Positions 26,251-39,873 of a stretch of DNA of 64,000 bases are shown here, piece by piece; within the stretch, counting starts at the first letter, position 1, and the number at the start of each line of letters is the position of its first letter. Source of the DNA: Pseudomonas piscis (GTDB lineage: Bacteria; Pseudomonadota; Gammaproteobacteria; Pseudomonadales; Pseudomonadaceae). The stretch is taken from the NCBI RefSeq assembly GCF_009380155.1, contig NZ_WHUV01000001.1, positions 1,612,001 through 1,676,000 of the forward strand, in the 5' to 3' direction. The notes below the pieces were generated by a model that did no database searches, was not told the origin of the DNA, and saw nothing but the letters and a program-made list of their open reading frames with translations. The position numbers and the translations under genes are program-made.

Positions 26251-26991
26251 TCAGGCCTGGAGCAGGCGGGTGGCGCTGGTACCGCCAGTTGCCGCTACTG
26301 CGCCGATCACCAGGATCGCCGGGCTCTTGAGCCTGAAATCCAGGGCATCCTGCTGCATATTCCCCAGCATGCTGCGACATTCCCGCTGCTCTGGCAGCGA
26401 GGCGTTCTCGATCATCGCCACCGGTGTCCAATCCGGCATGCCAGCGGCGCGCAACTGTTCGCCGATCTCTGTCAGTTTCGCCACTCCCATGTAGATCACC
26501 AGGGTCGTTCCGCCCTGGGCCAGTGCCTGCCAGTCCAACGGGCTGTCGTCCTGGGTATGGGCGGTGAGTAACGTCACGCCGCGGGCCACGCCACGCAAGG
26601 TCAGGGAAATATCGCAACTGGTGGCACCGGCCAGGCCGGCGGTGATGCCGTTCACCAACTCCACCTCGATGCCGTGCTCCCGGAGCCACTGGGCTTCTTC
26701 GCCACCGCGTCCGAAAATGCATGGATCGCCACCCTTGAGGCGAACCACGCAATGGCCTTGGCGGGCATAACGCAGCATCAGGCGATGGATGAAGGCCTGG
26801 GGCGTGGAACGACAGCCGCCACGCTTGCCCACCGCGATCACCCGCGCTCCGGGACAGTGTTGCAAGACGGCACTGTTGACCAAGTCATCGATCAGTACCA
26901 CATCGGCCTCGCCCAGGGCGCGTACCGCCTTGAGCGTCAGCAGCTCCGGGTCGCCAGGACCCGCGCCGACCAGCCAGACTTTTGCACTCAT
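26251..26991 (-). CDS. cobA: Uroporphyrinogen-III C-methyltransferase (siroheme synthesis)
   Basis: 246-aa SAM-dependent methyltransferase that methylates uroporphyrinogen III at C2 and C7 to precorrin-2, the precursor of siroheme (and cobalamin). Diagnostic segments are VWLVGAGPGDPELLTLKAVRAL at the N-terminus, VRLKGGDPCIFGRGGEEA (about residues 84-101) and ELVNGITAGLAGA (about 111-123). It has no CysG-type oxidase/chelatase domain, so siroheme must be completed by another enzyme. As last gene of the nirB-nirD-nasA operon it supplies siroheme for nitrite reductase. ATG at 26989-26991 with a GAGAGGAA ribosome-binding site, 11 bp after the nasA stop. Confidence 0.94.
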   Translation of the reverse strand: MSAKVWLVGAGPGDPELLTLKAVRALGEADVVLIDDLVNSAVLQHCPGARVIAVGKRGGCRSTPQAFIHRLMLRYARQGHCVVRLKGGDPCIFGRGGEEAQWLREHGIEVELVNGITAGLAGATSCDISLTLRGVARGVTLLTAHTQDDSPLDWQALAQGGTTLVIYMGVAKLTEIGEQLRAAGMPDWTPVAMIENASLPEQRECRSMLGNMQQDALDFRLKSPAILVIGAVAATGGTSATRLLQA

Positions 26992-27002
26992 GGGAATTCC
27001 TC

Positions 27003-29720
27003 TCACACAGGGATGGCCAAAGGTTGCGCCGCAGTGGCCAGGAGACGCTTGATCTCCGGCACGCAGGAGCCGCATTGGCTGCCGCAACCCAGTTGTTGTC
27101 GCAGTTGCCCCAGATCCAGGCCGGCGGCGATGCCGGCTTGCACGGCGCGATAACCGACGTTCTTGCAGTTGCACAAGGTGCGGTCCGCAGGCTCGCCCAG
27201 GCCGCAGGCTTGCGGTGGCGTGCTCAGGGGGGCCAACAGCCAGCGGCGCAGTTGTTCGTCGGCACGTCCTTCGAGCCAGAGCTGCTGCAACCAATGCCGG
27301 GCGAGGGTTTCCCCGGCCAGGCGGATGGCTGTGATCCGCTGCTGCTCGATACGCACCCGCTTGCCGATGGCCCGGCGCGGATCGTCATAGGCCAGCACCG
27401 GGCCGGCATCCAGCCCCAGGTGCTGGTCGATGGCCGCAAGCAGCTGGGGTTCCGGCGCCTGCAGGTGGGCGGCGCGAATCACCAAGGCCGGGCGCTCGCG
27501 GCCGGTCAGGGCGAGGCTGACATAGGCCAGGGACTCGCACAGCGGGCGCAGGGCCTGGAAGCGGGCCTGTACATCGCCTTCGACCAGGGCGAACAGTTGC
27601 CACGGCAAGTGCACCGGCTCCAGGCGCACGCCGCTGTGCTTGAGCTCCGGTTGCTTGGATAGCGGGTCGAAGGCCGGTTGGGTGACGGCATTGATTCCGC
27701 CCTTGAGGAAGCGATCGCCCCAATGCATCGGCAAGAACGCCTGGCCCGGGCGCACGCTGTCATCGCCGGTCACGGGCACTATCACGCTGCCGCGTCGGCT
27801 CTTGAGGCTCACCAGGTCGCCGTCTTGCAGGCGCTGGCGGCGCAGGTCATCCGGATGCAGGCTCAGCAGCGCCTCGCCGACATGGCCGAACGCCTGCGCT
27901 GCGGTGCCGGTACGGCTCATGCCGTGCCATTGGTCCCGCAGCCGGCCGGTGATCAGGGTCAGGGGAAAGCGCGCCTCGCGCTGCTCCCGGGCCGCTACGT
28001 AGGGATCGCTGATAAAGCGTGCGCGCCCCGTGGGCGTGGGGAACACGCCGTCGCCATACAGGCGTGCCGTGCCGTGGTCGGCGCCCTCTGGAAATGGCCA
28101 CTGCTGCGGGCCAAGCCGGTCGAGCAGTTCGAAGCCGAGGCCGGACAGATCCAGGTCGCGCCCCCGGGTCAGGCCCTTGTATTCATCGAACAGCTGGCTG
28201 GCACTCCCGAAGGCGAACAGGCTGGGCAGCCCGGGACGCAGGCGGCGCTCCAGGCGTCGGGCGAAATCCAGGGTGATCGCCCAATCCGCACGAGCTTCTC
28301 CAGGCGGCGGCACCGCTTGGCGCACATGGGAAACCCGGCGCTCGGAGTTGGTCACCGAGCCTTCTTTTTCCCCCCAGCTGGCCGCTGGCAGCAAGAGGTC
28401 GGCGAAAGCCGCCGTTTCCGTGGTGGCGAAGGCCTCTTGCAGGACCACGAAGGGACACTCGAGCAAAGCCGCGCGTACGCGATTCTGGTCGGGCAGCGAT
28501 TGGGCCGGGTTGGTGCAGGCGATCCACAGCGCCTTGATCCGTCCGCTGTGCAATTGCTCGAACAGTTCGATAGCGCTCAGCCCGGGTGTCTCCGGCAGGC
28601 GCTCAACGCCCCAGTAGCTGGCGACTTCGGCGCGGTCTCCGGGATTGGCGGCTTCCCGGTGGCCCGGCAGCAGGTTGCTCAGGCTGCCGGTTTCCCGACC
28701 GCCCATGGCATTGGGCTGGCCGGTGAGGGAGAAGGGCCCAGCGCCGGGCCGGCCAATCTGCCCGGTGGCCAGGTGCAGGTTGATCAGCGCGCTGTTCTTG
28801 GCGCTGCCGGCGCTGGACTGGTTCAGGCCCATGCACCACAGCGACAGGAAGCTCGGCGCGGTGCCGATCCATTGGGCGCACTGCTGCAGTTGCTCGATAC
28901 CGATGCCGCACAGCTGCGCCACCATGGCCGGGGTGTAGTCGCGCACCAGGGCCTTGAGTTCGGCCAGGCCCTCGGTATGGGCCTGGATGAAATCCCGGTC
29001 GATCCAGTCCTCCCACAACAGCAGATGCAGGATGCCGTGGAACAGCGCGACATCGGTGCCCGGCAGGATCGCCAGGTGCAGGTCGGCCAGGTCGCAGGTG
29101 TCGGTGCGCCTGGGGTCGATGACGATGACCTTCATCGTCGGGCGTTGGTTCTTGGCCTGTTCCAGGCGGCGAAACAGCACCGGGTGGGCATAGGCCATGT
29201 TGCTGCCGACGATCATCACGCAATCGCTCTGCTCCAGGTCCTCGTAGTTGCACGGTGGTGCATCGGCTCCCAGGCTGCGCTTGTAGCCCACCACCGCCGA
29301 AGACATGCACAGCCGCGAGTTGCTGTCGATGTTATGGGTGCCCACCAACGCCCGGGCCAGCTTGTTGAAGGCGTAGTAGTCCTCGGTCAGCAGTTGTCCG
29401 GAAAGGTAGAACGCCACGCTGTCCGGGCCGTGCTCGGCGATGGTTCGGGCAAAGACTTCGGCGGCGTGGTCCAGGGCACTGTCCCAATCGCAGCGGCTGC
29501 GAGCCAGGGCCTTGCCCAGGCGCAACTGCGGGTACAGCGCGCGGGCCGCCGGGTCGCCGGTCAGGTGCAGGCTGGCGCCCTTGCTGCACAGTCGGCCGAA
29601 GTTCGCCGGGTGCGCCGGATCGCCGCTGACCCCGAGGATCTGCCGGCCATCGTGCTCGATCAGCACGCCGCAGCCGACCCCGCAATAGCAACAGGTCGAG
29701 GCGGTGCTCTGGCGCTCCAT
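27003..29720 (-). CDS. nasA: Assimilatory nitrate reductase, molybdopterin subunit
   Basis: 905-aa cytoplasmic nitrate reductase. It has an N-terminal [4Fe-4S] motif (C10, C13, C17, C45 in CCYCGVGCG and LCSKG), the molybdopterin-guanine-dinucleotide domains of the DMSO-reductase family (LSGQLLTEDYYAFNKLARALVGTHNIDSNSRLCMSSAV), and a C-terminal BFD-like [2Fe-2S] domain (CNCKNVGYRAVQAGI and GCGSQCGSCVPEI) that takes electrons from a reductase partner. The ATG at 29718-29720 overlaps the nirD stop (TGATG) and starts the conserved MERQSTASTCCYCG. The open frame extends 69 bp further into nirD but that part is not conserved. Called nasA or nasC in different species. Confidence 0.94.
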   Translation of the reverse strand: MERQSTASTCCYCGVGCGVLIEHDGRQILGVSGDPAHPANFGRLCSKGASLHLTGDPAARALYPQLRLGKALARSRCDWDSALDHAAEVFARTIAEHGPDSVAFYLSGQLLTEDYYAFNKLARALVGTHNIDSNSRLCMSSAVVGYKRSLGADAPPCNYEDLEQSDCVMIVGSNMAYAHPVLFRRLEQAKNQRPTMKVIVIDPRRTDTCDLADLHLAILPGTDVALFHGILHLLLWEDWIDRDFIQAHTEGLAELKALVRDYTPAMVAQLCGIGIEQLQQCAQWIGTAPSFLSLWCMGLNQSSAGSAKNSALINLHLATGQIGRPGAGPFSLTGQPNAMGGRETGSLSNLLPGHREAANPGDRAEVASYWGVERLPETPGLSAIELFEQLHSGRIKALWIACTNPAQSLPDQNRVRAALLECPFVVLQEAFATTETAAFADLLLPAASWGEKEGSVTNSERRVSHVRQAVPPPGEARADWAITLDFARRLERRLRPGLPSLFAFGSASQLFDEYKGLTRGRDLDLSGLGFELLDRLGPQQWPFPEGADHGTARLYGDGVFPTPTGRARFISDPYVAAREQREARFPLTLITGRLRDQWHGMSRTGTAAQAFGHVGEALLSLHPDDLRRQRLQDGDLVSLKSRRGSVIVPVTGDDSVRPGQAFLPMHWGDRFLKGGINAVTQPAFDPLSKQPELKHSGVRLEPVHLPWQLFALVEGDVQARFQALRPLCESLAYVSLALTGRERPALVIRAAHLQAPEPQLLAAIDQHLGLDAGPVLAYDDPRRAIGKRVRIEQQRITAIRLAGETLARHWLQQLWLEGRADEQLRRWLLAPLSTPPQACGLGEPADRTLCNCKNVGYRAVQAGIAAGLDLGQLRQQLGCGSQCGSCVPEIKRLLATAAQPLAIPV

Positions 29721-30037
29721 CACCCGGCATCCCGCAGGGCCAGTTGCACCCGGCCGCTGGCGACCCGGGCCGCGTGCTGGTGGGCGCAACCGACATCCGG
29801 CGCCTGGGCCTGACCCGATTGCAGGTCGATCTGCCAGTTGTGCAGCGGACAGGCCACCCGCTTGCCGTGGATCAGGCCCTGGGACAGCGGCCCACCCTTG
29901 TGCGGGCAGCGATCGTCGAGGGCGAACACCTGGTCGTCGCTGGTGCGGAAAATCGCGATATCGCCCCGGGGCCCCTTGATGATGCGCGAGCCCAGGATGT
30001 TGATGTCTTCCAGGGCGCAGATATCCAGCCAGTTCAT
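29720..30037 (-). CDS. nirD: Nitrite reductase [NAD(P)H] small subunit NirD
   Basis: 105-aa Rieske-fold subunit of assimilatory nitrite reductase. Unlike E. coli NirD, it keeps a full set of Rieske ligands, C-x-H in RCPHKGG and C-x-x-H in ACPLHNW, so it should bind a [2Fe-2S] cluster. The ATG (30035-30037) overlaps the nirB stop as ATGA and its own stop overlaps the nasA start as TGATG, giving a chain of translational coupling nirB-nirD-nasA. Confidence 0.93.
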   Translation of the reverse strand: MNWLDICALEDINILGSRIIKGPRGDIAIFRTSDDQVFALDDRCPHKGGPLSQGLIHGKRVACPLHNWQIDLQSGQAQAPDVGCAHQHAARVASGRVQLALRDAG

Positions 30038-32487
30038 GCCGGCACCTCCAGTTGCTTGACGGGGATGGTCTCGTACTCTTTTTTCAGCAGCGGCTCGGCC
30101 AGCCGCTGCTGCCAGGGGTCCTGCTCGAAGGACAGGGAAAACTGCAGGCGTTCGTTGAGCGCCTGGCGCCGCTGCGGGTCTTCCAGTACGGCGCGTTTCA
30201 CGTGTTCCAGGCCGACCCGCTCCAGGTAGTGCACGGTGCGCTCCAGGTAGAAGGCTTCCTCGCGGTACAGCTGGAGGAAGGCGCCGTTGTACTCGCGCAC
30301 CTCGTCGGCGGTCTTGAGCTTGACGAAGAACTGCGCGACCTCGGTCTTGATCCCGCCGTTGCCGCCGATATACATCTCCCAGCCGGAGTCGACGCCGATG
30401 ATGCCCACGTCCTTGATCCCGGCTTCCGAGCAGTTGCGCGGGCAGCCGGAGACGGCCAGCTTGACCTTGTGCGGCGCCCACATGTTGAACAGGTCGTGCT
30501 CCAGGTCGATACCCAGCCGGGTCGAGTCCTGGGTGCCGAAGCGGCAGAATTCGCTGCCAACGCAGGTCTTCACAGTGCGGATGGATTTGCCGTAGGCATG
30601 GCCGGACGGCATGTCCAGGTCCTTCCACACTCCCGGCAGGTCTTCCTTGCGGATGCCCAGCAAGTCGATGCGCTGGCCGCCGGTGACCTTGACCATGGGC
30701 ACCTGGTACTTGTCCGCCACGTCGGCGATGCGCCGCAGCTCGGACGGGTTGGTCACGCCGCCCCACATCCTCGGCACCACCGAGTAGGTGCCGTCCTTCT
30801 GGATGTTGGCGTGGGCCCGCTCGTTGATCAGGCGCGACTGTGGGTCGTCCTTGGCCTCGCCCGGCCAGGTGGAGATCAGGTAGTAGTTCAGGGCCGGACG
30901 GCAGGTGGCGCAGCCGTCCGGGGTACGCCAGTCCATGAAACGCATGGCGTTGCCCAGGGTGATCAGGTGGTGCTCGCGGATCGCCTGGCGCACCTGGCCA
31001 TGGGTGAGGTCGCTGCAGCCGCAGATGGCCTTCTCGCTCTTGGGCTTGACGTCCGCCGCGCCGCCCACGGTGCTGATCAGGATCTGTTCCACCAGCCCGG
31101 CGCAGGAGCCGCAGGAGCTGGCGGCCTTGGTGTGCTTTTTCACCTCGTCGACGCTGAACAGGCCGTTCTCCTGGATGGCCTTGACGATGGTGCCTTTGCA
31201 TACGCCATTGCAGCCGCAGACTTCGGCGCTGTCGGGCATGTTCGCCGCGCTGTTCTGGCCCTGGTGGCCAACGTCGCCCACGCTGTTCTCGCCGAACATG
31301 AGGTGGTCGCGGATCTCGCCGACGTTATGGTTCTCGCGGATCTGCCGGAAGTACCAGCCGCCGTCGGCGGTGTCGCCATACAAGCAGGCGCCCACCAGCA
31401 CGTCGTCCTTGATCACCAGCTTCTTGTACACCCCGCCGATGGGGTCGGCGAGGGTGATGGTCTCGGTGCCTTCGCCGCCCATGAAGTCGCCGGCGGAGAA
31501 CAAATCGATCCCGGTGACCTTGAGCTTGGTCGACGTGACCGAGCCCTGGTAGCGGGCGAAACCCAGCTGGGCCAGGTGATTGGCGCAGACCTTGGCCTGC
31601 TCGAACAGCGGCGCCACCAGACCATAGGCGATGCCGCGATGGCTGGCGCATTCGCCGATGGCATAGATGCGTGGGTCGTAGGTCTGCAGGGTGTCGTTGA
31701 CCAGGATCCCGCGATTGCATGGCAGGCCGGCACGTTCCGCCAGTTCGGTATTGGGCCGGATGCCGGCCGCCATGACTACGAGGTCGGCGGGCAGGATGTC
31801 GCCGTTCTTGAGCCGTACCGAGCCGACCCGACCGTTGCCGGCATCGAGCAGCGCCTGGGTCTGCTCGCTCAGGCGGAACTTCAATCCGCGGCTTTCCAGG
31901 GCGCCTTGCAGCAGCTGGGCGCTGGTCTGGTCCAGCTGGCGCTCGAGCAGCCATTCCCCCAGGTGCACCACGGTCACTTCCATGCCGCGCAGCTTCAGGC
32001 CGTTGGCGGCCTCCAGGCCCAGCAGGCCTCCACCGATCACCACGGCATGGCGGTGGGTCCTGGCGGTGTCGATCATCACCTGGGTGTCGGCGATGTCCCG
32101 GTAGCCGATCACGCCCTGCAGATCGTTGCCGGGAATCGGCAGGATGAAGGGCGTGGAGCCGGTGGCGATCAGCAGGCGATCGTATTCGGCCTCGGTGCCG
32201 TCGTCGGCGATCACCCGGCGCCGGATACGGTCGATCTGCACCACCTTGCGGTTGAGCAGCAGCTTGATGCCGTGCTCCTGGTACCAGCCAAGGTCGTTGA
32301 GGATGATGTCCTCGAACTGCTGTTCGCCGGCCAGCACCGGCGACAGCAAGATACGGTTGTAGTTGGCGTGGGGCTCGGCACCGAAGACGGTGATGTCGTA
32401 CAGCTCCTCGCTCAGCTTGAGCAGTTCCTCCAGGGTGCGGACCCCGGCCATGCCATTGCCGATCATCACCAGCTTGAGTTTTTTCAT
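30034..32487 (-). CDS. nirB: Assimilatory nitrite reductase large subunit NirB
   Basis: 817-aa enzyme reducing nitrite to ammonium with NAD(P)H. It has an N-terminal FAD/NAD-binding reductase (MIGNGMAGVRTLEEL; VVIGGGLLGLEAANGL near residue 147), then two BFD-like [2Fe-2S] modules in tandem (CGCNGVCKGTIVKAI...SCGSC and CGCSDLTHGQVRQAI...CATC). The C-terminal siroheme/[4Fe-4S] domain has its ligands in TCVGSEFCRFG and VSGCPRNCSEAG. I chose the ATG at 32485-32487 because of the GGAGGAG ribosome-binding site. The frame is open upstream only because the leader lacks stops. First gene of nirB-nirD-nasA-cobA, preceded by a 161-nt leader with an ANTAR-type antiterminator. Confidence 0.96.
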   Translation of the reverse strand: MKKLKLVMIGNGMAGVRTLEELLKLSEELYDITVFGAEPHANYNRILLSPVLAGEQQFEDIILNDLGWYQEHGIKLLLNRKVVQIDRIRRRVIADDGTEAEYDRLLIATGSTPFILPIPGNDLQGVIGYRDIADTQVMIDTARTHRHAVVIGGGLLGLEAANGLKLRGMEVTVVHLGEWLLERQLDQTSAQLLQGALESRGLKFRLSEQTQALLDAGNGRVGSVRLKNGDILPADLVVMAAGIRPNTELAERAGLPCNRGILVNDTLQTYDPRIYAIGECASHRGIAYGLVAPLFEQAKVCANHLAQLGFARYQGSVTSTKLKVTGIDLFSAGDFMGGEGTETITLADPIGGVYKKLVIKDDVLVGACLYGDTADGGWYFRQIRENHNVGEIRDHLMFGENSVGDVGHQGQNSAANMPDSAEVCGCNGVCKGTIVKAIQENGLFSVDEVKKHTKAASSCGSCAGLVEQILISTVGGAADVKPKSEKAICGCSDLTHGQVRQAIREHHLITLGNAMRFMDWRTPDGCATCRPALNYYLISTWPGEAKDDPQSRLINERAHANIQKDGTYSVVPRMWGGVTNPSELRRIADVADKYQVPMVKVTGGQRIDLLGIRKEDLPGVWKDLDMPSGHAYGKSIRTVKTCVGSEFCRFGTQDSTRLGIDLEHDLFNMWAPHKVKLAVSGCPRNCSEAGIKDVGIIGVDSGWEMYIGGNGGIKTEVAQFFVKLKTADEVREYNGAFLQLYREEAFYLERTVHYLERVGLEHVKRAVLEDPQRRQALNERLQFSLSFEQDPWQQRLAEPLLKKEYETIPVKQLEVPA

Positions 32488-32545
32488 GGGCTCCTCCGGG
32501 AGCGCAGGCAGGGCTTGGGCCTGGCTCGACAAAATGCGCGCAAAC

Positions 32546-32585
32546 AAAAAAGGCGTCCCGTCAGTGGCCTGACGAGGACGCCTTT
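32546..32585 (-). terminator. Intrinsic terminator in the nirB leader
   Basis: On the minus-strand RNA the outer stem is AAAGGCGTCC (32585-32576) with GGACGCCUUU (32558-32549). Inside it CGUCAG (32574-32569) pairs with CUGACG (32564-32559). A run of U follows (32551-32546). It lies 59 nt before the nirB start, so it would stop transcription unless read through. Its first arm is shared with an upstream hexaloop hairpin. Confidence 0.85.
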
Positions 32586-32630
32586 GTCCGATCCCGTTCT
32601 CTCGGGAAGCCTGCCTTCGTCGTTGAAGGC
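32576..32630 (-). promoter_or_regulatory. ANTAR-target RNA (NasT site) in the nirB leader
   Basis: Three hairpins with six-nucleotide loops in RNA order: GCCUUC-[AACGAC]-GAAGGC (32630-32613), UCCCG-[AGAGAA]-CGGGA (32607-32592) and GGAC-[AAAGGC]-GUCC (32589-32576). All loops have A at position 1 and G at position 4, the signature of RNA bound by ANTAR proteins. The third hairpin uses the same bases as the first arm of the terminator, so its formation should prevent termination. The middle hairpin may be part of the linker. nasT, which encodes an ANTAR protein, is in the same cluster. Confidence 0.8.
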
Positions 32631-32658
32631 CGGGCTTTATGTCTGTTGCCAGGAGCAA

Positions 32659-32674
32659 TGCAGCGCCTGTGCCA
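32659..32674 (-). promoter_or_regulatory. Sigma-54 promoter of nirB-nirD-nasA-cobA
   Basis: The minus strand reads TGGCACAGGCGCTGCA, matching TGGCAC-N5-TTGCA with one change. Transcription would start near 32648, about 18 nt before the first leader hairpin. An NtrC-like half site TGCACC lies about 80 bp upstream (32738-32743), which is weak evidence. Confidence 0.65.
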
Positions 32675-32868
32675 AGTTACCGAGACCGCGTATTTGCATG
32701 CTGCCCAGGCAGCTGTTCGCGCTACCGGGGCAGTTTCTGCACCGAATTGACGCGTCCTGCCCCGTTTCGATACCGGCCATTTCCACTCCCACGTGGCCGC
32801 TGCCGAGCCTGTGAGGCTGCGACAAGGCCCGCAGGGCCTTCATCGCCGGGTCATGCGCAACCAAGGCC

Positions 32869-35856: not shown

Positions 35857-35910
35857 GAAAAGACGCCGGCACCCGGCTCGCGGTGGGCGAGCAGGATGCG
35901 CGACGTCTTT
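35857..35910 (-). terminator. Intrinsic terminator in the narK leader
   Basis: On the minus-strand RNA AAAGACG (35910-35904) pairs with CGUCUUU (35865-35859). Inner stems are GCAUCC with GGGUGC and GCUCGC with GCGAGC. The U-rich end is at 35861-35857. It lies about 100 nt before narK and shares its first arm with the second hexaloop hairpin. Confidence 0.75.
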
Positions 35911-35941
35911 GTCGTGGGTGGGGCAACCGCCGTTGGTTACC
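35901..35941 (-). promoter_or_regulatory. ANTAR-target RNA (NasT site) in the narK leader
   Basis: Two hexaloop hairpins in RNA order: GGUAACC-[AACGGC]-GGUUGCC (35941-35922, with one G-U pair) and CGAC-[AAAGAC]-GUCG (35914-35901). Both loops have A1 and G4. The second hairpin overlaps the first arm of the terminator exactly as in the nirB leader. The first begins about 4 nt after the predicted transcription start. Confidence 0.78.
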
Positions 35942-35954
35942 GATGCTTATCCGA

Positions 35955-35971
35955 TAGCAAGAGCCGGGCCA
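35955..35971 (-). promoter_or_regulatory. Sigma-54 promoter of narK and the kinase/phosphatase gene
   Basis: The minus strand reads TGGCCCGGCTCTTGCTA, matching TGGCAC-N5-TTGCT with one change. It lies 20 bp downstream of the nasT stop, and transcription would start near 35945. Confidence 0.65.
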
Positions 35972-35990: not shown

Positions 35991-36566
35991 TCAGCCCAGC
36001 AGTTCCTGCATGGCGATGATCTGCTCCGCCACCTGGATCAGCTTCTGCTGCCGGCTCATGGCCTGGCGGCGCATCAGGGTGTAAGCCTGCTCCTCGTCGC
36101 AGGCCTTCATCTTCATCAGTAGCCCTTTGGCCAGTTCGATGCGCTTGCGCTCCGCCAGTTGCTGGTCCCGGGCCTGCAACTGGGCGCGCAGGGCCTGGTC
36201 GCTCTCGAAGCGGGCCATGGCCACATCGAGGATCGGTTGCAGGCGCTGGACCTGGATGCCTTCGACTATGTAGGCGCTGACCCCGGATTTGATCGCCTGG
36301 CGCATCACGCCCGGGTCGTGCTCGTCGGTGAACATCACGATGGGCCGGGGCTGGTCGCGGCTGACCAGCACCACTTGCTCCATGACGTCGCGCCCCGGTG
36401 ACTCGGTATCGATCAGGATCACGTCCGGACGCACCGCTTCGACGCGTCCGGGCAGGTCGATGGTCAGGCCGGATTCGTCGATGACTTCGAAGCCGGCCTC
36501 GCTGAGGGCCGCCTTGAGCCGCCCGACTTTCTTCGCGGTGTCGTTGATCAGCAAGATTCGCAGCAT
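35991..36566 (-). CDS. nasT: ANTAR-domain nitrate antiterminator NasT
   Basis: 191-aa protein with a pseudo-receiver domain (residues 1-120, LRILLINDTAKKVGRLKAAL) and a C-terminal ANTAR RNA-binding domain (about 130-190, IELAKGLLMKMKACDEEQAYTLMRRQAMSRQQKLIQVAEQII). In this system NasS holds NasT without nitrate, and nitrate frees NasT to bind leader RNA and prevent termination. The expected targets are the hexaloop hairpins in the nirB and narK leaders. It starts 15 bp after nasS. The receiver is unlikely to use phosphorylation if it works like other NasT proteins. Confidence 0.95.
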   Translation of the reverse strand: MLRILLINDTAKKVGRLKAALSEAGFEVIDESGLTIDLPGRVEAVRPDVILIDTESPGRDVMEQVVLVSRDQPRPIVMFTDEHDPGVMRQAIKSGVSAYIVEGIQVQRLQPILDVAMARFESDQALRAQLQARDQQLAERKRIELAKGLLMKMKACDEEQAYTLMRRQAMSRQQKLIQVAEQIIAMQELLG

Positions 36567-36581: not shown

Positions 36582-37790
36582 TCAGTGCCGGGCGCAGAGG
36601 GCTGGGGTGTCGTTCAGGGCGTGCAGGTGGAAGCTGCGGGCATAGGCGGCCGGTTGTGAGCCGTCCCAGACCTTGCCATCGATCAACTGGCTGCTGCGCA
36701 TCTGCGGGCCGCAGGCGATGCCCAGGGCTGTCGCTGCTTCGCGGTAGAGCTGCACTTGCTGTACCTGGCGTGCCACGGCCAGGTAGTCCGGGTCTTCGCG
36801 CAGCAGGCCCCAGCGGCGGAACTGGGTCATGAACCACATGCCGTCTGATAGATAGGGCTGGTTCACCGCGCCATGCTGGTGAAAGCGCAGGGCATGGGGA
36901 TCCTGCCAGCGATGGCCGAGGCCGTCGGCGTAGTCGCCCAGCAGTCGTGGTTCGATGCAGGCAAGCGGCGCGTCGAGGTAGTCGCTGGCGCTCAGTAGCC
37001 GGGCGGTGCCTCGACGGTTCTCCAGGCTTTGCTCGATGAAGCGGCTGGCCTCCAAGACGGCCATCACCAGGGCTCGGGCGGTGTTGGGGTAGTGCTCGGC
37101 GAAGGTTCGGGTGCAGCCCAGGACCTTTTCCGGATGATCCGGCCAGATCGCCTGGCTGGTGGCCAGGGTGAAGCCCAGGTCTTGCTGCACCGCGCTGGCG
37201 CTCCAGGGTTCGCCGACGCAGAAGCCGTCGATGCGCCCTGCCTGCAGGTGGGCCACCATCTGCGGCGGCGGTACCACCACGCTGTCCACGTCCTGCAGCG
37301 GATGGATGCCCTGGCTGGCCAGCCAGTAGTACAGCCACAGGGCGTGGGTGCCGGTGGGAAAGGTCTGGGCGAAAGTCAGGCGCGCCCGGCTTTGGTGCAC
37401 ATGGCGCTCCAGTGCTTCAGGGCTGGTCACCTCGAGGGCTTGCAGCCCCGGCGACAGGTTGATGCTCTGGCCGTTCTGGTTCAGGCCCATGAGTACCGCC
37501 ATGGGGCAGGGGCTGGTACCGCCGATGCCCAGGTGCACGGCGTAGACCAGGCCGTACAGGCTGTGGGCGGCGTCCAGTTCGCCGCTTACCAGTTTGTCCC
37601 GCAGGCTGGACCAGGAGCTCTGGCGCTTGAGGTTCAGGGTCAGGCCGTGGGGCTGGGCGAACCCCTGGGTGGCGGCGACTACCAGCGATGCGCAATCGGT
37701 CAGGGCCATGAAGCCCAGGTCCAGTTCGGGCTTTTCCGGGGCATCGCTACCGTTGACCCAGGCCAGCGCTGGGCGAAGGTGTTCAGTCAT
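36582..37790 (-). CDS. nasS: Nitrate-binding sensor NasS (NrtA-like, cytoplasmic)
   Basis: 402-aa periplasmic-binding-protein-like fold of the NrtA/NasS family ([68 protein letters not shown]). There is no signal peptide or lipobox, so it stays in the cytoplasm, as expected for the sensor that binds nitrate and controls NasT rather than a transporter component. I chose the ATG at 37788-37790. The frame is open upstream but only the shorter protein matches the family. First gene of the nasS-nasT unit, with a sigma-54-like promoter upstream. Confidence 0.92.
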
Positions 37791-37847
37791 GGGGCTACCT
37801 TGCGTGAAGGACCTGGCCTTGGCCCGGGAGGATGGCGAAGCAGCAGG

Positions 37848-37863
37848 TGCAAGGCATATGCCA
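37848..37863 (-). promoter_or_regulatory. Sigma-54 promoter of nasS-nasT
   Basis: The minus strand reads TGGCATATGCCTTGCA, matching TGGCAC-N5-TTGCA with one change. The predicted start near 37837 leaves a 47-nt leader before nasS. It lies back to back with the pyrD -10. Confidence 0.6.
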
Positions 37864-37913
37864 GCGCTGGTCGGATTTGCCGATGCGCCTCGCCTGTGGG
37901 GCCCGGGCCCGGC

Positions 37914-37919
37914 TATAAT
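37914..37919 (+). promoter_or_regulatory. Consensus -10 (TATAAT) of pyrD
   Basis: Perfect TATAAT 40 bp before the pyrD ATG. No good -35 is visible at 16-18 bp, so the call is partial. Confidence 0.4.
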
Positions 37920-37958
37920 CGCTGCCCCATTTCGCTGTCCACCGAGTCCATCGCGCCC

Positions 37959-38978
37959 ATGTATAACCTGGCCCGCCAGCTGCTGTTCAAACTCTCCCCG
38001 GAAACCTCCCACGATCTGTCCCTGGACCTGATCGGCGCGGGCGGGCGTCTGGGCCTCAACGGCTTGCTGTGCAAGGCTCCGGCATCAAAGCCGGTGACGG
38101 TCATGGGCCTGGAGTTCGCCAACCCGGTGGGGCTGGCCGCCGGCCTGGACAAGAACGGCGCGGCCATCGATGGCTTCTCCCAGCTGGGTTTCGGTTTCGT
38201 CGAGATCGGCACCGTCACCCCGCGCCCGCAGCCAGGCAACCCCAAGCCACGGATCTTCCGCCTGCCGGAGGCCGAGGGCATCATCAACCGCATGGGTTTC
38301 AACAACCTGGGGGTCGATAACCTGCTGGCGCGGGTCTCCGCCGCCAAGTACCGGGGCGTGCTGGGGATCAACATCGGCAAGAACTTCGATACCCCGGTGG
38401 AGCGGGCGGTGGACGACTACCTGATCTGCCTGGACAAGGTCTATTCCCGGGCCAGCTACATCACGGTCAACGTCAGCTCACCCAACACTCCGGGCCTGCG
38501 CAGCCTGCAATTCGGCGAGTCCCTCAAGCAGCTGTTGGCCGCCCTGGGCCGGCGCCAGGAGGAATTGACCGCGATCCATGGCAAGCGTGTGCCGCTGGCG
38601 ATCAAGGTCGCTCCGGACATGAGCGATGAAGAAACCGTGGAAGTGGCCCGTGCCCTGCTGGAGGCGGGCATGGATGCGGTGATCGCCACCAACACCACCC
38701 TCAGCCGTGAAGGCGTCGAAGGCCTGGAGCATTGCGACGAGGCCGGTGGCCTGTCCGGTGCGCCGGTGCGGGAGAAGAGCACCCATACGGTCAAGGTCCT
38801 GGCTTCCGAGCTGGCCGGTCGCCTGCCGATCATCGCGGTGGGCGGCATCACCGAAGGCAAGCATGCAGCCGAGAAAATCGCCGCCGGCGCGAGCCTGGTG
38901 CAGCTGTATTCGGGGTTCATCTATAAAGGACCGGCGCTGATTCGCGAATCGGTGGATGCCATCGCGGCGATGGGCTGA
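37959..38978 (+). CDS. pyrD: Dihydroorotate dehydrogenase (quinone), class 2
   Basis: 339-aa membrane-associated enzyme oxidising dihydroorotate to orotate with ubiquinone in pyrimidine synthesis. The N-terminal amphipathic helix ([20 protein letters not shown]) is the class 2 membrane and quinone-binding extension. FMN and substrate motifs are [13 protein letters not shown] (about residues 54-66), [10 protein letters not shown] (about 108-117) and [14 protein letters not shown] with the catalytic Ser region. The ATG at 37959 has the conserved start. The same frame is open far upstream but opposes nasS. Confidence 0.95.
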
Positions 38979-39330: not shown

Positions 39331-39873
39331 AGGGTGTTTCCCTCACTTGTTGACTGTATATGTCCCGTCGACCTTCGTTGAGGTCGGGCAGATCGGTTCT
39401 GCCGTTGGTGCTCGCTGCCGGCGTCGCGAGCCTTGATGTCGACGCCGTTGCGGCGCCAACCTGTGTTGAGTTCTAACCAATAGGTCACAGCAAGTGAATG
39501 ATCGTTTTGTCATAAGAACGTAACCATAATGCTGTCCAGGCCATAAGCCAGAGCGGTTTTTGCACGGTCTCCTTGGAGCAAAGCCTGCTGTGATCAGGCC
39601 TCTACTAGATGATGAGGTTAATGCTTTAGTGAGAATGTCGAACGGTTGCACTCAACTACTATTCGACGAAGGGTAGACTTATGTCATTTTGTTGCCCTGA
39701 CTTTTCATCTGCCCCGGCCTCTAAGCTCTTTTGTCCTGCAAGAAAGCCTGCCCGCCGGGGTGGGACGGCACGTTGCGTGCCACACGAGCGCTCTTGAAGA
39801 AAAGCGCTTGATTAAAAACCGAGCGGGCGATGCGTTGCCCGTTCACTTATTTGCCTAAGGCCCTGGTATTTCC
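39331..39873. other. 543-bp intergenic region between divergent rmf and rlmL
   Basis: No credible protein gene. Two short open frames here lack ribosome-binding sites and family resemblance. The part near rmf has lower GC than its surroundings and must hold the rmf promoter, and the part near 39840 the rlmL promoter. I could not pick convincing boxes for either. A weak hairpin GGGC-N-GCCC lies near 39823-39843. A small RNA cannot be excluded from sequence alone. Confidence 0.4.

Follow-up and report, generated by a model that had tools for sequence, protein, structure and literature searches.

The nirB leader and its genomic neighborhood

The window, by which we mean the whole stretch of 64,000 nucleotides of Pseudomonas piscis that was analyzed, carries on its minus strand an operon of nirB, nirD-like, nitrate reductase, and cobA-like genes, preceded by a structured leader at positions 32546 to 32674. 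Upstream of the leader, on the same strand, are encoded a NasS-like protein, NasT, an MFS transporter, and a kinase/PP2C protein. The features that enter the argument are, in the direction of transcription:

36582-38012, minus strand: nasS-like NMT1_2 protein, open reading frame as listed (Pfam NMT1_2, 310 bits)
35991-36566, minus strand: nasT, receiver-like and ANTAR, the proposed reader of the leader (Pfam ANTAR, 60 bits)
35900-35970, minus strand: narK RNA (Rfam RF03032), two hairpins with loops AACGGC and AAAGAC plus a terminator, before the MFS transporter gene (Rfam, fold)
32660-32674, minus strand: sigma-54-type -24/-12 box, TGGCACAGGCGCTGC (sequence)
32613-32630, minus strand: hairpin H1, GCCTTC-AACGAC-GAAGGC, A1 at 32624 and G4 at 32621 (sequence, fold)
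32592-32607, minus strand: hairpin H2, TCCCG-AGAGAA-CGGGA, A1 at 32602 and G4 at 32599 (sequence, fold)
32576-32589, minus strand: hairpin H3, GGAC-AAAGGC-GTCC, A1 at 32585 and G4 at 32582 (sequence, fold)
32546-32582, minus strand: intrinsic terminator, GGCGTCC (32582-32576) with GGACGCC (32558-32552) (fold)
30034-32487, minus strand: nirB, first gene of the putatively controlled operon (Pfam Pyr_redox_2, NIR_SIR, and Fer2_BFD)
29720-30040, minus strand: nirD-like Rieske protein, searched stretch (Pfam Rieske)
27003-29789, minus strand: assimilatory nitrate reductase of the molybdopterin type (Pfam Molybdopterin and Molydop_binding)
26251-27294, minus strand: cobA-like tetrapyrrole methylase, open reading frame as listed (Pfam TP_methylase)

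The best 80 relatives of NasT from a named collection, from which the nearest genomes were possibly excluded, all belong to Pseudomonas, with P. protegens at the top (97% identity). A second ANTAR protein of the genome (L032, G000:C17:209821), encoded downstream of an AmiC-like protein, is presumably AmiR-like. Rfam also places an rmf RNA at window positions 39349 to 39480 (minus strand, 117 bits).

Leader anatomy and chance expectation

Transcription is predicted from the sequence to start near position 32648. A basal stem, read from the sequence of the minus-strand leader, extends H1 outward, and the closing pair is C-G in H1 and H3 and G-C in H2. Six Ts (32551 to 32546) directly follow the terminator stem, and bases 32582 to 32576 are common to H3 and the 5′ arm of the terminator. 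The full predicted transcript folds as H1, H2, and the terminator (−52.4 kcal/mol), the leader cut after H3 folds as H1, H2, and H3, and forcing H3 in the full leader yields −39.0 kcal/mol; the folds with and without the terminator thus make H3 and the terminator mutually exclusive. The preliminary description, made from the letters alone, had proposed a sigma-54-like promoter on the minus strand, three hairpins with A1/G4 hexaloops, and the mutual exclusion of the last hairpin and the terminator, and all of these elements were recovered here.

Strict ANNGNN hairpins, defined by at least four Watson-Crick pairs and counted on both strands after removal of overlaps, number 60 in the whole 64 kb. 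Clusters of at least two within 60 nt are confined to two sites, the nirB leader and position 35934, and three together occur only in the nirB leader. Among 100,000 dinucleotide shuffles of positions 32545 to 32648, 96,912 contained no such hairpin, 3,056 contained one, 32 contained two, and 0 contained three.

Family assignment and published context

The leader matches the Rfam family P11 (RF00625) at 32552 to 32686 on the minus strand with 123.1 bits, for a gathering cut-off of 70 bits, and the match spans model positions 1 to 139 of 139. Both Rfam models, RF00625 and RF03032, start in promoter DNA containing the -24/-12 boxes, where the P11 model draws a helix; the 5′ parts of the two models are probably not transcribed. 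In several genomes (G095, G048, G031, G136, G059, G099, and G363), the terminator end of the true leader also gives weak antisense P11 matches of 28 to 33 bits, which are probably produced by the terminator palindrome.

We read the P11 leader as NalA, the leader of nirBD, on the basis of operon and family, an identity that none of the texts consulted states outright. According to the accessible part of a 2026 review, which cites Romeo 2012 and Nie 2024 for NalA, NasT binds the NalA leader of nirBD and prevents termination, NasS holds NasT when nitrate is absent, and the nalA promoter is of the sigma-54/NtrC type. Excerpts of a 2025 paper describe P11 of strain PA14 as regulating a nitrogen assimilation operon with NirB, NirD, and NasC, and binding of NasT to the nasA leader RNA is recorded, also in an excerpted source, for Paracoccus. 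The P11 match, the operon, the NasT and NasS-like proteins encoded in the window, and the review's account of NalA all agree with the NasT switch that had been put forward for nirB-nirD-nitrate reductase-cobA. The switch type is already known, and the proposed mechanism has already been published for leaders of this type. A strict NtrC-type dyad (GCAC-N4..8-GTGC) was found in the 250 nt upstream of 0 of 29 loci, and the window contains only loose NtrC-like dyads, such as that at 32753; NtrC control is therefore taken from published work.

Conservation of the three hairpins

Conservation was examined in 169 related leaders, one per genome, a nonrandom set whose choice is biased toward low scores and other genera. 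It comprises all 83 over-cut-off leaders of the genus, 3 from the order, and 83 hand-picked from the family and larger draws, three of which (G318, G404, and G322) score under the cut-off. Left out were six lower-scoring two-hairpin leaders with an unassigned downstream gene (L085 to L090), second hits in the same genome (L091, L092, L265, and L267), and weak or antisense hits (L128, L152 to L155, L169, and L205 to L209).

The A1/G4 hexaloop is kept in H3 of 169/169 leaders, in H1 of 160/169, and in H2 of 123/169. The H1 count admits a C.A second pair (six leaders), the compact L268 and L269, and L222, which was assigned by hand, and the H2 count includes 8-nt loops (L083, L197, and L203) scored as A1/G4 hexaloops plus one A-U pair. 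A stem of the H2 form is present in 149/169 leaders, 26 of which have another loop (13 hexaloops without A1/G4 and 13 loops of other lengths). The remaining 20 keep H1 and H3 and have no H2 stem, meaning no CCYG/CRGG adjoining H3, although L222 and L223 possibly have a 3-pair stem. The middle hairpin, which the preliminary description had regarded as unusual, is therefore a family trait and not an oddity.

The surroundings of the hairpins are similarly conserved. The box TGGCAY-N6-TGC is found in 168/169 leaders, all seven pairs of the terminator stem are kept in 160/169, and NirB begins, in the same orientation, 68 to 156 nt beyond the H3 loop at 164/169 loci, the remaining five having no NirB match. 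Loop spacing is 22 to 24 nt from H1 to H2 (116 leaders) and 17 to 19 nt from H2 to H3 (123 leaders), and the distance from H1 to H3 is 39 to 42 nt in 148/160 leaders; the leaders without an H2 stem have an H1-H3 gap of 37 to 40 nt in 14 of 20 cases. Further, in a sample that is independent of leader score, the strict three-hairpin pattern was present at 63 of 80 named Pseudomonas nasT loci, the 17 misses including short contigs as well as leaders that possibly lie elsewhere.

The three hairpins vary in different ways. Among 99 distinct H1 hairpins, changes on both sides of the stem were seen at pairs 3, 4, 5, and 6 in 28, 11, 9, and 29 hairpins, and the same pairs were unpaired in 12, 13, 19, and 36, respectively; the outer stem of H1 is loose because pairs 3 to 6 often fail to pair. 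Pair 1 of H1 is C-G in 99/99; recognition required the A1/G4 loop and a C-G closing pair, so that the figures from these 99 hairpins are not independent of it, whereas the 160/169 is. The 47 distinct H2 hexaloop hairpins all have G-C at pair 1, partly by choice since the stem was recognized as CCYG/CRGG; at pair 2, 40 have C-G and 7 have T-A. The H2 loop has A at position 1 in 39 of them, G at position 4 in 43, and A at position 5 in 44, while positions 2, 3, and 6 vary. H3 exists in only 9 distinct sequences and is too conserved for a covariation test.

Distribution of leaders and ANTAR regulators

Within the genus, 99 of 149 genomes gave P11 matches (83 over the cut-off); the corresponding numbers are 263 of 398 genomes (236 over) in a larger draw and 160 of 218 genomes (138 over) in the family, where 11 of 19 genera are represented. 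The order yielded 6 of 145 genomes (5 over the cut-off), all within the same family. The narK RNA was found in 129 of the 149 genus genomes (125 over the cut-off). With true NasT defined by an E value below 1e-20, 127 of these 149 genomes have NasT. Counting hits as listed, narK leaders occur in 126 of the 127 genomes with NasT versus 3 of the 22 without, and P11 leaders in 95 of 127 versus 4 of 22. In 16 of the 22 NasT-less genomes of the genus, no ANTAR domain over the threshold was found. The 88% complete genome G133 retains a P11 leader with no ANTAR domain found, and G086, also with no ANTAR domain found, has a narK-like match (E value, 4e-8), either a relic or a sign of a missed regulator. 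In another genome (G125:C1:2156816-2157389), the NasT match falls into two overlapping pieces (1 to 163 and 158 to 191), a possible frameshift, and a three-hairpin P11 is present.

Among the 169 leader genomes, the NasT search covered 163, with NasT present in 151 and absent in 12. A search for NIT-ANTAR (NasR-like) proteins with query P0003 (Pfam NIT, 175 bits; ANTAR, 60 bits) covered 80 of the 169 and found them in 22, namely, 11 of the 12 NasT-less genomes, the twelfth being G133, and 11 genomes that also have NasT. No NIT-ANTAR protein was found in the genome to which the window belongs.

All 151 genomes with NasT, including the 11 with both regulators, have an intact H1, as do 3 of the 12 NasT-less genomes. 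The nine genomes in which H1 is lost (G001, G147, G734, G718, G730, G694, G696, G514, and G331) all lack NasT and encode a NIT-ANTAR protein, and two others (G018 and G443) lack NasT, bear NasR, and keep H1. The retention of H1 in the 11 two-regulator genomes indicates that its loss tracks the absence of NasT and not the presence of NasR as such. The A1/G4 loop of H2 is found in 110/151 genomes with NasT versus 10/12 without, loop position 1 being C in G694 and G331. On a FastTree phylogeny of 164 NirB N termini, we counted 2 state changes for H1, 17 for the H2 motif, 4 for the H2 stem, and 4 for NasT, and the H1 losses represent two independent events. An independent-pairs test of H1 against NasT gave agreement in 1 of 3 pairs, the other two being invariant, and did not reach significance. 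The match between H1 and NasT, which comes from two independent losses, can thus be put to the test but so far falls short of significance.

The narK RNA and other related leaders

The narK leader of the window sits 3.3 kb upstream of the P11 leader, between nasT and the MFS transporter gene, and has a sigma-54-like box. The strict two-hairpin rule was passed by 52 of 64 narK loci, a few of them perhaps via chance pairs; among the 52, the second loop is AAAGAC in 46, a -24/-12-like box is present in 31, and the loop-to-loop distance is 23 to 25 nt in 45. Inspection by eye of the 12 failing loci showed both A1/G4 loops, together with a second pair of A.C or a T run that is short. A search of the literature for "narK motif" gave nothing.

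Two further groups of sequences were noted. Among weaker narK matches (L130 to L136 and L140 to L143), several precede, by eye, the start of a molybdopterin-nitrate-reductase-like gene, which points to a further candidate type of leader, on another operon for nitrate reductase. The six two-hairpin leaders L085 to L090, which score 41 to 51 bits with the P11 model, have H1 with an extended stem, no H2, a linker of ∼16 nt by eye, and an H3 of CAGGC-AAAGGC-GCCTG.

Proposed mechanism

We consider it highly probable that the nirB leader is a transcription-attenuation leader of the P11/NalA family controlled by NasS and NasT. RNA polymerase with sigma-54 would initiate near 32648. When nitrate is absent, NasS would hold NasT, the RNA would form H1, H2, and the terminator, with the short leader as the main product. 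With nitrate or nitrite present, NasT would be freed and would bind the A1/G4 hexaloops; on H3, it would withhold the shared arm from the terminator, so that nirB-nirD-nitrate reductase-cobA would be transcribed. In this scheme, the promoter box, the three hairpins, the terminator overlap, their conservation, and the co-occurrence with ANTAR proteins are direct observations, and NasT binding and antitermination on this leader type, as well as NasS release by nitrate, are taken from publications.

H1 and H3 are probably the contacts of NasT, H1 serving as a putative recruitment hairpin and H3 as a putative antitermination hairpin. H2 would be an accessory ANTAR-type hairpin that provides an extra docking step or compacts the gap between H1 and H3. 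The largely fixed positions 1, 4, and 5 of its loop argue that H2 is a contact, whereas the 17 changes inferred for its motif speak against an essential role when NasT is the regulator. In addition, SELEX with NasR favored a C-G closing pair, as reported in an excerpted source, so that H2, with its G-C pair, may bind ANTAR proteins weakly or not at all. Partial accounts of eutP describe impaired function with linkers of 3 or 14 nt and abolished function with 20 nt added; these tests imply that the H1-H3 gap matters unless H2 compacts it. However, a long gap is also found in most leaders that have no H2 stem. Equally open is that H1 and H2 are contacted first and the protein then moves to H3, by analogy with the successive-binding model described, in the part available, for EutV; this option draws on the H1-H2 spacing (23), which is near that of the two-hairpin narK leaders (24).

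A competing view, which concerns H2 only and to which we give somewhat less than an even chance, is that H2 serves only as a structural spacer bringing H1 and H3 closer together, its loop not being contacted. The H2 stem outlives its loop motif in the 26 leaders with another loop, the 20 leaders without an H2-form stem retain H1 and H3, and the closing pair differs from that preferred by NasR in the excerpted SELEX work. A spacer, however, would need neither A1 nor G4, found in 39 and 43 of the 47 distinct H2 loops in which positions 2, 3, and 6 vary.

Where a NasR-like protein has replaced NasT, H2 may stand in for H1, as the two losses of H1 suggest. The G-C closing pair of H2, the small number of events, and the retention of H1 in G018 and G443, which bear NasR and lack NasT, speak against this. 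A broader and rather unlikely reading is that P11 is a platform with exchangeable regulators, in which H3 would be the fixed effector, H1 would recruit NasT, and H2 would recruit a NIT-ANTAR protein of the NasR type.

It is very unlikely that P11 is chiefly a trans-acting small RNA, with the terminator as its normal 3′ end and the link to nirB secondary. Rfam types RF00625 as a gene/sRNA, and the 2025 paper, as far as excerpted, treats PA14 P11 as an sRNA taken up by Caenorhabditis elegans, but the same excerpts have P11 regulating the nitrogen assimilation operon. NirB follows the leader at nearly all loci (164/169), H3 overlaps the terminator arm and has A1/G4 in every leader, and the leaders track ANTAR genes across genomes. 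Action in trans and the attenuation switch are not exclusive, since termination does not prevent a leader from acting in trans. Less credible still is that the 5′ arm of H2 (TCCCG) pairs with CGGGA of the descending terminator arm as a second antiterminator. The pentamers of the window do complement each other, yet in genus g95, where the H2 stem is CCTG/CAGG, the terminators of L255, L256, L260, and L263 lack CAGGA, and the pairing was rejected because the change is matched within H2 and not with the terminator. Chance hairpins in G+C-rich DNA, for which the frequency of lone ANNGNN hairpins in the window (60) speaks, can be dismissed given three hairpins in 0/100,000 shuffles and their conservation across 169 leaders.

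Comparison with known systems

The closest known system is P11/NalA itself (RF00625; P. aeruginosa and P. putida), with which the leader shares the sequence family, the kind of operon, the promoter type, and the NasT regulator. The ANTAR motif is defined, in the passages available, as two hairpins with A1/G4 hexaloops, the second overlapping a terminator, and one survey, also available in part, accepted linkers of 2 to 25 nt. The leader has at least two A1/G4 hexaloops (three), terminator overlap, and NasT in the same genome. It thus shares the A1/G4 hexaloops and the terminator overlap with the dual-hairpin leaders of eut in Enterococcus faecalis, nasF in Klebsiella, and amiE in P. aeruginosa, but it differs from them in having three hairpins, a longer H1-H3 gap, and a G-C-closed H2. 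The narK RNA (RF03032) has A1/G4 hairpins, terminator overlap, and, in the window's copy, a sigma-54-like box in common with P11, and it differs in having two hairpins with a spacing of 23 to 25 nt. NasR, a NIT-ANTAR protein acting on nasF, offers a parallel for nitrate-dependent ANTAR antitermination as proposed for P11, although this regulator was not found in the genome of the window. Within the listings and excerpts searched, which lacked the principal papers on P. aeruginosa and P. putida, no description of three A1/G4 hairpins in one leader was found.

Implications

Collectively, these results allow two Rfam families, P11, which is filed as an sRNA, and the narK RNA, to be read as ANTAR antitermination leaders. 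PA14 P11 RNA has been reported, in a source available in part, to alter C. elegans behavior, and a role of P11 as the leader of a switch is relevant to those findings. The P11 family also presents a natural experiment on the contacts of the ANTAR dimer, with leaders that have H1 and H3, H2 and H3, or all three hairpins, in genomes with NasT, NasR, or both. If the reading of P11 as a platform with exchangeable regulators is true, a genome could exchange the protein that senses nitrate while leaving the switch of the operon unchanged.
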